Under the pieces are notes generated by a model. The model was given only the letters and a program-made list of their open reading frames with translations. It made no database searches and was not told the DNA's origin. A stretch of DNA of 64,000 bases from Croceibacterium mercuriale. Its GTDB lineage: Bacteria; Pseudomonadota; Alphaproteobacteria; Sphingomonadales; Sphingomonadaceae. The stretch lies in assembly GCF_000802385.1 (NCBI RefSeq), contig NZ_JTDN01000002.1:1-64000 (forward strand), in the 5' to 3' direction. Each line of letters begins with the position of its first letter. The stretch's first letter is position 1. The position numbers and the translations under genes are program-made. Of the stretch, positions 24,647-51,952 are shown piece by piece.

Positions 24647-24900
24647 CGCCCGCCCCCCGCCGGGGGGGTGACACAGGTTGCACTGTAGACCGCCCGGAAC
24701 GCGCCACCTTGCCGGGGGCGGCCGGCACCATGGCGCGGGAAGGCGTCACGGTGGCGGCCGCAGGTGTCGCCCGGGCGCGGGCTGGTGTCGCGATGGCGAA
24801 CCGATGTGTCGCCTTGCCGGTGCGCGATGTCGCGACAGGCGACGCGAGTGTCGCGGTGAGCGCCGGCAGTGTCACGGTGGGAAGCGGGGGAAAGCTGCAT
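24643..24900 (-). CDS. Putative small protein of HRDT-type heptad repeats upstream of ruvA
   Basis: An 85-codon frame starting at the ATG at 24900, six bases after AGGTGG, and ending in a TGA that overlaps the ruvA ATG. Residues about 8-55 are seven or eight seven-residue repeats with consensus H-R-D-T-x-x-x ([49 protein letters not shown]). They are encoded by the 21-bp DNA repeat array. The coupling geometry argues for translation; the fact that a 21-bp repeat is open in every frame argues against it. No family recognised. Confidence 0.35.
24724..24891. repeat. Degenerate 21-bp tandem repeat array (about 8 units)
   Basis: The core GTGTCGC (plus strand), or GTCAC/GTCGC, recurs at exactly 21-bp intervals: 24745, 24766, 24787, 24808, 24829, 24850 and 24871, with a weaker unit at 24724. 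The other positions of the unit vary freely. The array fills most of the 346-bp gap between the divergent ruvA and aroC genes. There are no separate spacers, so it is not a CRISPR. Confidence 0.85.
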
Positions 24901-34424: not shown

Positions 34425-34967
34425 ATGGCCGACCAAGGCGACGTCCTCACCAACCTCGACAACATCATGGGCGGCAACGGCGCCAGTGGCGCCAACGGCC
34501 ATGATGACGGGCCGATCGCCGGGCTGGTGACGCAGTATGTCAAGGACCTGTCGGTCGAGAACCCGCGCGCGCCCGAAAGCTTCCAGTGGACGGAGCAGCC
34601 GCAGCTGGACGTGCAGTTCAACATCGCCGCGCGCCAGATCAGCGACGAGTTCACCGAAGTCGAACTGAAGATCACCACCTCCGCCAAGAGCAGCCAGGGC
34701 ACCGCCTACATGGTGGAGCTGGCCTATTGCGGGCTGGTGGGCATGCGCAACATGAGCGACGACCAGCGCCACGCCTTTTCGTATGCCGAGGCACCGCGCA
34801 TCCTGTTCCCCTTCGCCCGCCGCGTGATTGCCGATGCGGTGCGCGATGCCGGTTTCCAGCCGCTGCTGCTGGACCCGATCGACTTCCAGGGCCTGTACCT
34901 GCAGCAATTGCAGCAGCAGCGTCTGCAGGCCGAGCAGCTGGCGGGCGAGCCGGCGGGCGAGGCCTGA
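34425..34967 (+). CDS. secB: Protein-export chaperone SecB
   Basis: A 180-residue cytoplasmic chaperone that keeps preproteins unfolded and hands them to SecA. Family segments are QLDVQFNIAARQISDEFTEV, YMVELAYCGLVGM, and LFPFARRVIADAVRDAGFQPLLLDPIDF. An N-terminal extension of about 25 residues is Gly/Asn-rich and the C-terminus is Gln-rich, both common in sphingomonads. murJ follows 58 bp downstream. Confidence 0.95.
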   Translation: MADQGDVLTNLDNIMGGNGASGANGHDDGPIAGLVTQYVKDLSVENPRAPESFQWTEQPQLDVQFNIAARQISDEFTEVELKITTSAKSSQGTAYMVELAYCGLVGMRNMSDDQRHAFSYAEAPRILFPFARRVIADAVRDAGFQPLLLDPIDFQGLYLQQLQQQRLQAEQLAGEPAGEA

Positions 34968-34991
34968 TCGCCTGAACGGCAGGGCCGGCGC

Positions 34992-35029
34992 ATGAGCCCA
35001 GTCTTTCCATGAGCCCGGTCTTTTCATGA
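34992..35029 (+). promoter_or_regulatory. Two chained mini-ORFs leading into murJ
   Basis: A 17-bp repeat places ATG codons at 34992, 35009 and 35026. The first opens MSPVFP and stops at TGA 35010-35012, overlapping the second ATG as ATGA. The second opens MSPVFS and stops at TGA 35027-35029, overlapping the murJ ATG as ATGA. Only the first ATG has a plausible ribosome binding site (AGGG at 34981-34984). Termination-reinitiation into murJ is the simplest reading. Confidence 0.55.
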
Positions 35030-36630
35030 GCCTGGTCAGGAATGTCGGTACGATCGGCGGGCTGACCGCGGTCAGCCGGGTGTTCGGCTTCATCCGCGAC
35101 ATGCTGGTGGCCCGCGTGCTGGGCGCGGGGCTGGCGGCAGATGCCTGGCAGCTGGCCTTCACCCTGCCCAACACCTTCCGCCGGCTGTTTGCCGAAGGCG
35201 CGTTCTCCGTAGCCTTCGTCCCGATGTACACCCGCCGGCTGCATGGCACCGAGGACGGCGCCAGCGGCGAGGAGGCGGCCGACCGCTTCGCGGGTGACGT
35301 GCTGTCCGTGTTCGTGTGGGTGCTGCTGGGCTTTTCCGCGCTGGCGATGCTGGCCATGCCGGGGATCGTCTGGCTGCTGGCGCGCGAGTATCAGGCGGTG
35401 CCCGGCAAGTTCGAGCTGGCGGTGACGCTGTCGCGGGTCACCTTCCCCTATCTGCTGCTGGTCAGCCTGGTGGCGATGCTGTCCGGCCTGCTGAACGCGC
35501 GCAGCCGCTTCGCGCCGGGCGCCTTCGTGCCGGTGCTGCTGAACCTGGTGCTGATCGCGGGCGTGGTCACCGGCTATTTCTGGCGGCAGCGGACCGGCAG
35601 CGACGTGTCGGTGGCCTGGGCCCTGGCGTGCGCACTGGCGGCGGCGGGCGTGGCGCAGCTGGCCTACATGGCGTGGGCCACGCGCCGGGCCGGCGTGCGG
35701 CTGCGGGTGACGCGCCCCCGCTTCACGCCCGACGTGCGGCGGCTGGGCATGCTGATCCTGCCGGCCACCTTCGGCGCGGGGATCTACCAGATCAGCCAGC
35801 TGGTCGACACGTTCTTCGCCACGAGCCTGCCGCAGGGATCGCTCACGCTGCTGAAGCTGGCGGACCGGCTGAACCAGATGCCGCTGGGCATCTTCGGCAT
35901 CGCGCTGGGCACCGCGATCCTGCCGATGCTGGCGCGCCATATCCAGGGCGGGGACATGCGCGAGGCGCAGCGGCTGCAGGCCAATGCGGTGGAGGTGGCG
36001 ACGCTGCTGACGCTACCCGCCGCCGCCGCGCTCGCGATCTGCGCGCCGGCCTTCGTCACCGCGTTCTTCGTGGGTGGCAAGATGACGCTGGCGAGCGGCG
36101 CGATCATGGCGGACATCGTGGTAGCTCTGGTCTGCGGCCTGCCCGCCTATGTGCTGGTGAAGGTGTTCCAGCCCGCCTTCTTCAGCCGGGAGGATACGCG
36201 CACTCCGGTGTGGAGCGCGGCCGCCACGCTGGCGGTGAACATCGCGCTGAACTTCTACGTGGTGCCGCGATACGGCATCGTGGGGCTGGCGGCGGCCACC
36301 GCCTTCACCGCGACGCTGAACGTGGCGGTGCTGTATGCGGTGCTGCAGCTGCGCGGCTGGTTCCGCTTCACCGCCCGGCTGGGCTCGCGCATCGCGCGGC
36401 AATTGCTGGCGACCGGGGTGATGAGTGCGGTGCTCTGGCTGCTGATGCCGTTGCTGGCCCCTTATTTCGGTGGAACGGTGGTGGAACGGGTGCTGTCGCT
36501 GGCGGTGCTGGTCGGCGCCGGTGTGGTGGTGTTCTTCGGCGTGGCGTATGCGGCCGGCGCGATCGACCGCGACCTGCTGGGGCAGCTGCGACGGCGGCGT
36601 CCCGCGAAACCGGTCGATCTTGCCGAGTGA
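35026..36630 (+). CDS. murJ: Lipid II flippase MurJ
   Basis: A 534-residue MATE-like inner-membrane protein with about 14 helices that flips lipid II for peptidoglycan synthesis. Family landmarks are TAVSRVFGFIRDMLVARVLGAG, NTFRRLFAEGAFSVAFVP and LADRLNQMPLGIFGIALGTAILP. It has no ribosome binding site of its own; two mini-ORFs overlap its start. trpS follows 19 bp after the stop, so secB-murJ-trpS probably form one transcript. Confidence 0.95.
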   Translation: MSLVRNVGTIGGLTAVSRVFGFIRDMLVARVLGAGLAADAWQLAFTLPNTFRRLFAEGAFSVAFVPMYTRRLHGTEDGASGEEAADRFAGDVLSVFVWVLLGFSALAMLAMPGIVWLLAREYQAVPGKFELAVTLSRVTFPYLLLVSLVAMLSGLLNARSRFAPGAFVPVLLNLVLIAGVVTGYFWRQRTGSDVSVAWALACALAAAGVAQLAYMAWATRRAGVRLRVTRPRFTPDVRRLGMLILPATFGAGIYQISQLVDTFFATSLPQGSLTLLKLADRLNQMPLGIFGIALGTAILPMLARHIQGGDMREAQRLQANAVEVATLLTLPAAAALAICAPAFVTAFFVGGKMTLASGAIMADIVVALVCGLPAYVLVKVFQPAFFSREDTRTPVWSAAATLAVNIALNFYVVPRYGIVGLAAATAFTATLNVAVLYAVLQLRGWFRFTARLGSRIARQLLATGVMSAVLWLLMPLLAPYFGGTVVERVLSLAVLVGAGVVVFFGVAYAAGAIDRDLLGQLRRRRPAKPVDLAE

Positions 36631-50225: not shown

Positions 50226-51952
50226 CATTCCGGCCCGTTGCCGGCATGGGCACCCTGGCCGTCCATGGCTTCGCAGCGCGGCCACCCGCGCCGGGCCTGC
50301 CTGTCGGCGCGTGGCTGCAGCAGGCGATCGACCGGTTCGTGGCGGCAGGGCTGGCGCCCGGCACCCGGCTGTTCTGCCCGCTCGATCCCCGCAGCCTGGA
50401 TGATGCCACCGTGCCCGCCCGGCTGGCAGCGCTGGCCGTGCGGCACGGCCTGCCTGCCGGCGACCTGGTGCTGGAGCTGTCGGGTGCGCAGCAGAAGCTG
50501 TCCCCGGCACTGGTCCATCGGCTGGCGGAGTGCAACCTGCGGGTGGCGCTGGCCGGCTTCGGCTGCGGCTGCGGGGAGATGGAGTGCCTGTCGGGCGCCA
50601 GCCCTGATTACCTGACGCTGGATCCGCATTTCACCACCGGCATCGCCGGCAACACGCGGGCGCAGGCGGTCGTCGCCAAGCTGATCGGGCTCGGTCATGC
50701 GCTGGGTGTGCCGGCCATCGCCACCGGAGTGACGACGGAAGCGGATTTCCGGATGCTGCGCGAACTGGGCTGCAACATGGCGGAAGGTGATCTGATCGGC
50801 GGCGCCGCTGCCATGCCGGGGGCGACCGGCTCTGTCACCCTGGCCAAGCGGCTGGGACGCGGAGCCGCCATACCGCCGCGGATCGCCGACCTGATGATGG
50901 CCGTGGAGCCGCTGTCAGCCCACGACACGCTGACCGATGTCGTGGGCCGGTTCCGCCAGGGTGTGCAGCTGGGCCTGCTGCCGGTGGTCGACGAGGCCGG
51001 CCGGGTGCTGGGTGCGGTGTTCGAGCGCGACCTGCGCACATACCTGTTCAGCGATTTCGGCGCCGCGCTGATCGAGAACCGCGGCTTGCGGCGCAGCGTG
51101 GCGGACCTGATCCGGCCGTGCCCGGTGGCGGAAGCGACCGCCGCGATCGAGGCGATCGTGGAAAGCTACATGGTCGCCCCCGACGCACGCGGGCTGGTGC
51201 TGACACAGGACGGGCGACTGGCCGGCATGATGAGCAGCCACAACGTCCTGCAACTGACCAGCGAGCGCGCGGTGGCCGATGCGCGCGACCGCAACCCGCT
51301 GACCGCGCTGCCGGGCAACGCCTCCATCCGCCGGTATCTGTCCCGCTCCGGCGTGGGCACGCCGCACACGGTGATCTTCTTCGACTTCGACAATTTCAAG
51401 GCGTTCAACGACGCTTACGGCTTTGCCGAGGGCGACCGGGTCATCCTGCATTTCGCCGATGTGCTGAAGGCCGCAGGCCGCGATCATGGCGGCTTCGTCA
51501 GCCATGTGGGCGGCGACGATTTCTTTGCCTGCTTTCCGCTGGAAGAGGCAGCCGCCGACCTGGTCACGCGCCGGCTGCTGCACGCCTTCCGCCTGCGGGC
51601 GGAGGCGCATTACAGCCCCGAGCACCGCATCGCGGGCGGGTTCCGCGGCAAGGACCGGTATGGCGAGCAGCGCTTCTTCCCGCTGATCCGCGCGGCCGCG
51701 GTGCTGCTGCACCTGCCGGCGGAGCGGCCCGAAGTCGACCCGGACGCGATCGTGGCCGCGCTGGCCCACGGCAAGAGCGCTGCCAAGGCCAGTGTGGAAG
51801 GACTGCACCGGATCAGTCTGGAGATGCTGCTGGGTGGCCAACGGACCCAGGGCGCCGAATGGCCGACGACCGGCCGGCAGGGTCCACGGTCCGGCTTCGT
51901 GGCGGAACCGCGGGCGCCCTACTTCGCGCCAGCCGCGGCGCGCGCGCACTGA
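50162..51952 (+). CDS. Degenerate EAL-CBS-CBS-GGDEF protein
   Basis: A 596-residue soluble protein with an EAL-like domain (about 18-235), two CBS motifs (about 250-293 and 320-363) and a GGDEF domain (about 385-540). The EAL motif is lost (HGFAARP at its place), and ATGVTTEADF replaces the catalytic EGVE. The GGDEF signature reads GGDDF (450-454). The protein is thus more likely a c-di-GMP or nucleotide receptor than an enzyme. The ATG at 50162 precedes the EAL fold directly. Confidence 0.82.
   Translation: MDIAVSAQGDAPSADTGKAGIAFRPVAGMGTLAVHGFAARPPAPGLPVGAWLQQAIDRFVAAGLAPGTRLFCPLDPRSLDDATVPARLAALAVRHGLPAGDLVLELSGAQQKLSPALVHRLAECNLRVALAGFGCGCGEMECLSGASPDYLTLDPHFTTGIAGNTRAQAVVAKLIGLGHALGVPAIATGVTTEADFRMLRELGCNMAEGDLIGGAAAMPGATGSVTLAKRLGRGAAIPPRIADLMMAVEPLSAHDTLTDVVGRFRQGVQLGLLPVVDEAGRVLGAVFERDLRTYLFSDFGAALIENRGLRRSVADLIRPCPVAEATAAIEAIVESYMVAPDARGLVLTQDGRLAGMMSSHNVLQLTSERAVADARDRNPLTALPGNASIRRYLSRSGVGTPHTVIFFDFDNFKAFNDAYGFAEGDRVILHFADVLKAAGRDHGGFVSHVGGDDFFACFPLEEAAADLVTRRLLHAFRLRAEAHYSPEHRIAGGFRGKDRYGEQRFFPLIRAAAVLLHLPAERPEVDPDAIVAALAHGKSAAKASVEGLHRISLEMLLGGQRTQGAEWPTTGRQGPRSGFVAEPRAPYFAPAAARAH

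Follow-up and report, generated by a model that had tools for sequence, protein, structure and literature searches.

Chained six-codon reading frames, probably copied from the gene's own start, precede murJ in Croceibacterium mercuriale

In Croceibacterium mercuriale, which we take to be the current name of Porphyrobacter mercurialis, the essential gene murJ is preceded by two copies of a 17-nt unit, each opening a six-codon reading frame that ends in an ATGA overlapping the next start. The locus raises the question of where such a chain comes from, and whether it regulates murJ or is tolerated there. It lies in the window, by which we mean the whole stretch of 64,000 nucleotides analysed, the start of contig 2 of a genome of 3,482,341 bp in 10 contigs. 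The chain is real; its reading as a regulatory relay is unproven.

The secB-murJ junction

The array occupies part of the 58 nt that separate the secB stop from the murJ start (Table 1). Copy 1 is ATGAGCCCAGTCTTTCC (34992-35008), copy 2 is ATGAGCCCGGTCTTTTC (35009-35025), and murJ opens with ATGAGCCTGGTCAGG (from 35026), with ATGs at 34992, 35009 and 35026. The first frame reads ATG AGC CCA GTC TTT CCA TGA and the second ATG AGC CCG GTC TTT TCA TGA. Both TGA codons share 4 nt with the following ATG (ATGA at 35009-35012 and 35026-35029), the second frame opening within the ATGA that closes the first and closing within the ATGA that opens murJ. An earlier note on this DNA had given the ATG positions, the two translations and the 4-bp overlaps, and every coordinate proved correct. 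The two copies are identical at 15 of 17 positions; between copy 2 and the murJ start, 11 of 17 positions agree overall and 11 of the first 12.

Tandem Repeats Finder gave the array (17-bp unit, 2.8 copies) a score of 73, which ranks second highest among the 73 repeat rows of the 64-kb window. The top-scoring tandem repeat of the window, at 24730-24813, reaches 99; it has two copies of about 42 bp and a sub-period of 21 bp. The pattern ATGA-N13-ATGA-N13-ATGA occurs a single time in the genome, at murJ, and a genome-wide search with a 24-nt pattern and at most 3 mismatches found the unit confined to this locus, bar weak unrelated matches. The murJ starts were assigned by conservation: the MurJ N-terminus, MSLVRNVGTIGG, is conserved in relatives from residue 1, and 5' of 35026 the murJ frame has no start codon before the in-frame TGA at 34993-34995.

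Upstream of the ATG at 34992 the predicted pairing with the 16S tail amounts to -6.2 kcal/mol, whereas the ATGs at 35009 and 35026 have -1.9 and -2.9 kcal/mol; shuffled upstream sequences average -4.7 kcal/mol. By this prediction a credible, though modest, ribosome-binding site is present only at the first ATG, and the claim of the earlier note that no other ATG has a plausible one holds. The sequence GGCAGGGCC is probably the ancestral binding site of murJ, now serving mini-ORF 1.

Table 1. Features of the secB-murJ junction, in window coordinates
Feature	Coordinates	Strand	Evidence and remarks
secB, protein-export chaperone	34425..34967	+	Open reading frame; NF004392 and TIGR00809 above cut-off; stop codon at 34965-34967
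Shine-Dalgarno-like GGCAGGGCC	34978..34986	+	Predicted pairing -6.2 kcal/mol; counterpart adjoins murJ in C. ferulae and G001
Mini-ORF 1, MSPVFP and stop	34992..35012	+	Repeat copy 1 at 34992-35008; not in the two closest relatives
Mini-ORF 2, MSPVFS and stop	35009..35029	+	Repeat copy 2 at 35009-35025; not in the two closest relatives
murJ, lipid II flippase	35026..36630	+	TIGR01695, 379 bits against a cut-off of 235.55; N-terminus conserved

Origin of the 34 nucleotides and recurrence at murJ

The two closest relatives found, C. ferulae (L005) and genome G001 (L006), whose MurJ proteins are 94% and 88% identical to that of the window, align to it with one clean 34-nt gap placed exactly at the two copies, and their predicted binding sites (-7.9 and -6.3 kcal/mol, respectively) lie directly before murJ. 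Because these relatives are without exactly 34 nt and have an equivalent binding site next to the gene, the 34 nt are most simply explained as two 17-nt units recently added by tandem duplication of the murJ start, the window representing the derived state. The source of the copies is likely to be the first 17 nt of murJ; as the copies diverge from the gene at positions 13-17, their descent rests on the first 12 nt together with the exact 34-nt gap. With the binding site staying upstream of the first copy, the murJ ATG would have come to lie 34 nt further from it. Since 17 equals 2 modulo 3 and murJ begins with ATG AGC, the copies close on the next start at the -4 spacing, as NTGA. Microhomology-driven slippage was rejected as the cause of the length of 17 nt: in copy-free junctions, 4-nt matches at this spacing are not enriched (2 seen vs 5.6 expected). 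Within the same genus, the MurJ of genome G004 (L015) is only 53% identical to that of the window, vs 80-94% in other members, while for hisA and lepA the identity is 82% and 95%; for this reason its murJ may have been exchanged.

In more than 200 secB-murJ junctions, drawn from the family and the order, each murJ start was compared with the stretch lying d nt 5' of it. A distinct peak appeared at d = 17, where 5 junctions had at least 9 of 12 matches, vs 0-2 at any other spacing. Clear or probable 17-nt copies of the murJ start were found in the window genome (two) and, across four further genera, in G022 (L024), in G019 (L033, weaker), in Altericroceibacterium spongiae (L100) and in G402 (L173), the congener A. 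indicum (L098) being without the copy of A. spongiae. The slippage-type duplication that the earlier note had offered as an alternative is thus borne out by the 34 nt missing from the closest relatives, by the single copies in other genera and by the absence of one of them from a congener. The number of units at murJ is 0, 1 or 2 in different species; of C. mercuriale itself the analysis covered one strain. A relay conserved among relatives, on the other hand, is contradicted by those in which the repeat is absent and murJ has a normal binding site, which the earlier note had named as a refutation.

In another genus, G145 (L481/L493; L481 at G145:C1:1421729-1421766) has its own two-step 17-nt ATGA chain before murJ, encoding MNVPRL and MKRRPS, each followed by a stop. 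Its units resemble the murJ start weakly, and with 61 nt its secB-murJ gap exceeds that of the congener G006 by exactly 34 nt. Furthermore, unrelated six-codon frames, also 17 nt long, precede murJ in a group of Novosphingobium species (L069, L083, L093, L111). Dereplicated by identity of the last 35 nt, 35 junctions have an ATG mini-ORF closing on murJ, and 11 of these frames have a length of 17 (Poisson p about 2e-4). As some of the 11 share ancestry, we estimate about 8-9 separate occurrences, a number of independent origins obtained by this tree-free dereplication. Where an ATGA stands at -17, the gap is longer (median 47 vs 30 nt, p 2e-4), and the mini-peptide sequences differ between lineages. 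In a check for C-terminal proline in the mini-peptides, CC before the ATG was mildly commoner with mini-ORFs (7/35 vs 13/108). Before murJ, four species of one genus (L195, L196, L197 and L198) have in common a 35-nt frame whose similar peptides end in a proline, e.g. MTGPVAGTGRAP followed by a stop, possibly a longer conserved leader ORF.

Neutral upstream starts would be distributed evenly among the three frames. In 125 dereplicated junctions, 34 upstream ATGs lie in frame 2, with 3 in frame 0 and 10 in frame 1, vs about 15 per frame in dinucleotide shuffles. Frame 2, which is closed by murJ's own ATGA, was expected to hold 15.1 +/- 3.5, and this excess implies that removal of bad frames alone is insufficient as an explanation. 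In the same set, a mini-ORF opening with ATG, GTG or TTG closes on the murJ TGA at 47 junctions vs 23.4 +/- 3.6 expected, and in the extended junction set the ATGs number 7, 13 and 46. At murJ junctions with a murJ-closing mini-ORF the predicted binding sites of murJ are weaker (p 0.003), although an ATG within the scored stretch itself lowers the score. The control genes hisA, lepA, gshA and proB, which have few upstream ATGs, are biased in the same direction at lower strength (11 in the coupling frame vs 5 and 6), and the idea of a phenomenon specific to murJ was rejected as unsupported. Mini-ORFs were present in 33 of 143 murJ junctions and in 9 of 67 control junctions (Fisher p 0.14). NTGA starts of the window genome show a mild frame bias (22, 21 and 33), as surveyed in 800 kb with a home-made gene caller based on a simple codon model. 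The hisA gene of the same genome (L289) follows a single 17-nt mini-ORF (ATGTTAACCGCGACGCC, G000:C1:283111-283128) that closes on its ATGATC start.

Passage of ribosomes to murJ

We consider it probable that the murJ start was duplicated twice and that ribosomes now arrive at murJ after terminating and reinitiating twice, the insertion being tolerated and not necessarily a regulator. In the C. mercuriale lineage, the tandem duplications of the first 17 nt of murJ would have left the original binding site before the first copy and the murJ ATG without a good site of its own, each copy forming a six-codon frame with its TGA inside the next ATGA. Ribosomes would load at 34992, read six codons, terminate on the ATGA, reinitiate at 35009 and repeat the step to reinitiate at 35026. 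The two back-to-back NTGA junctions would thereby help a murJ start that would otherwise be poorly used 34 nt further from the binding site. Expression would remain adequate for an essential gene, and for that reason the insertion would be tolerated. That the mini-ORFs are translated, that they act as a relay and that the insertion is nearly neutral we infer, whereas the sequence, the 34-nt insertion, the binding-site scores, the family-wide frame preference and the recurrence are observed.

By prediction the locus has the features of coupled ORFs, a binding site at the upstream ORF and no good one at the downstream start, and stop and start overlap as NTGA at 35009-35012 and 35026-35029. The -4 nt NTGA/ATGA junction is the commonest spacing of neighbouring genes in prokaryotes (PMC12548453, PMC6728339, PMC10666635). 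Coupling requires an overlap or a very short gap and is nearly abolished by about 20 nt, while 15 nt of the upstream gene can suffice (PMC10666635). Nevertheless, six codons are very short, which counts against the relay, given that one synthetic study obtained a boost only with 8-10 codons or more and a strong internal binding site (PMC13255528). Of the relay suggested by the earlier note, the termination-reinitiation part fits the binding site at the first ATG, the -4 nt NTGA at both junctions and the family-wide frame preference; signal-responsive control of murJ is unsupported.

That the chained mini-ORFs have been kept by selection for tuning murJ output, e.g. by a stepwise lowering with each reinitiation or by a tie to the status of termination or initiation factors, appears unlikely. 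Such selection would agree with the coupling-frame ATGs above the neutral expectation, with the separate occurrences of 17-nt frames and their length peak at murJ, with the two-step chain in a second genus and with the weaker binding sites beside mini-ORFs; however, the closest relatives manage without a chain, the mini-peptides are not conserved between lineages, the frequency of mini-ORFs at murJ is not clearly above that of the controls, and neither an RNA structure nor an Rfam family was found in the gap. It is quite unlikely that ribosomes enter directly at 35026 with no Shine-Dalgarno site, or come from secB, leaving the mini-ORFs untranslated and the repeats inert. Bacteria can use starts lacking such a site, and weak predicted pairing is common among secB-murJ junctions, but the best predicted site of this junction lies before 34992 and not before 35026, and an inert insertion should show no coupling-frame preference across the family. 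Moreover, the secB stop is 58 nt away, a distance well beyond the roughly 20-nt gaps that nearly abolish coupling (PMC10666635). We regard an assembly or sequencing error as very improbable: the analysis covered a single assembly of the species, from short Illumina reads, but this Porphyrobacter mercurialis Coronado draft was built from 300-base reads at an estimated 280x coverage (PMC4653769), the copies are identical neither to one another nor to murJ, which speaks against a simple mis-duplicated stretch, and similar copies occur in independently sequenced genera.

Further candidates for the secB-murJ gap were tried and rejected. An RNA structure or riboswitch was dismissed on folding no better than that of shuffles and on the lack of an Rfam match, and a simple sigma-70 and terminator scan found neither a promoter nor a terminator of its own. 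An attenuator or sensory leader peptide was rejected as well, since the peptides vary between lineages and the gap shows shuffle-level folding, no Rfam family and no terminator-like site.

The nearest natural precedent for serial reinitiation into murJ appears to be the mycobacterial MIRUs, inserted repeats with a small ORF that lie at start codons and are coupled to the gene at -4 nt (PMC12548453). The likeness lies in an ORF-bearing repeat at a start codon, in the -4 nt coupling and in expression that is probably left nearly intact. In contrast, MIRUs are longer, dispersed at many start codons and apparently mobile, whereas the murJ unit measures 17 nt, comes from the gene's own start and is not dispersed. 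Termination-reinitiation at NTGA overlaps (PMC6728339, PMC10666635) uses the same -4 nt ATGA junction but joins full genes, while here two six-codon frames stand in series before one gene. In the iraD leader of E. coli, with its coupled short upstream ORF of 27 codons (PMC5574718), and in synthetic bicistronic or short-ORF leaders (PMC10367133, PMC13255528), a short frame near or overlapping the gene start likewise delivers ribosomes; these are single longer ORFs that have a regulator of their own or, where engineered, an internal binding site, with neither self-duplication nor a chain. In a statistical study, the enrichment of A at the fourth site (NTGA) is presented as a trap for misframed initiation (PMC5850271). 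This offers a reason for frame-2 upstream starts to be harmless, as the gene's own NTGA would stop them in the right position and may allow reinitiation; the passages concerned describe no duplicated starts or chains. Our partial literature search found no description of start-codon self-duplication giving chained six-codon frames, which is weak evidence of novelty, and no paper on translational coupling of murJ.

The locus suggests how an essential gene can absorb insertions of 2 modulo 3 at an NTGA start: the inserted frame would terminate at the gene's own start codon, and ribosomes would continue by reinitiation. Short upstream ORFs and bicistronic-like leaders could arise in nature by this simple evolutionary route. 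Furthermore, natural single- and double-step chains with empty-site relatives would make the cost of successive reinitiations directly measurable.

Chains before other genes

Two-unit 17-nt ATGA chains number about 75 in 397 genomes of the family, in a search that was complete at 17 nt and sampled at 14-20 nt. Among 30 readable two-unit chains, the murJ chain included, 13 lead to the start of a gene whose protein belongs to a recognised family, the baseline for this test being 7.9% of ATGA sites outside sense coding in the window genome. Chains that look like own-start duplications precede an Hda-like gene (L412; 17-nt chain, copies identical at 17 of 17 positions), a histidine phosphatase (L414; three mini-ORFs) and ccmE (L435; 17-nt chain), and less clearly a relative of phosphogluconate dehydratase after a 17-nt chain (L431). 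Chains spaced by 14 nt also occur before long ORFs (L469, L473), from which it follows that 17 is not the sole workable length. In raw counts of ATGA triples, the coupling spacings (14 in 9 spacing pairs) are not above most other spacing pairs, and the argument therefore rests on position at gene starts. The reversed pattern AGTA is an unfair control for ATGA and was left unused.

We hold it doubtful that in Sphingomonadaceae own-start duplication, often of a 17-nt, six-codon unit, is a recurrent and selected route to ATGA-chained ribosome relays, with murJ as a hot spot and copy number setting expression. If this were true, selected own-start duplication would be a micro-scale, home-grown counterpart of the mycobacterial MIRUs.

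A 14-nt ATGA array in which MTWPK and a stop are repeated (L475; G187:C57, around 51704-51763) has no long ORF downstream, so such arrays arise away from gene starts too. In two genomes of one genus (L476, L477), near-identical 17-nt units, ATGAGCGGGCGAGATAA or ATGAGCGGGCCAGAAA[TG], are chained before a short membrane-like protein beginning MSGLAILIP.
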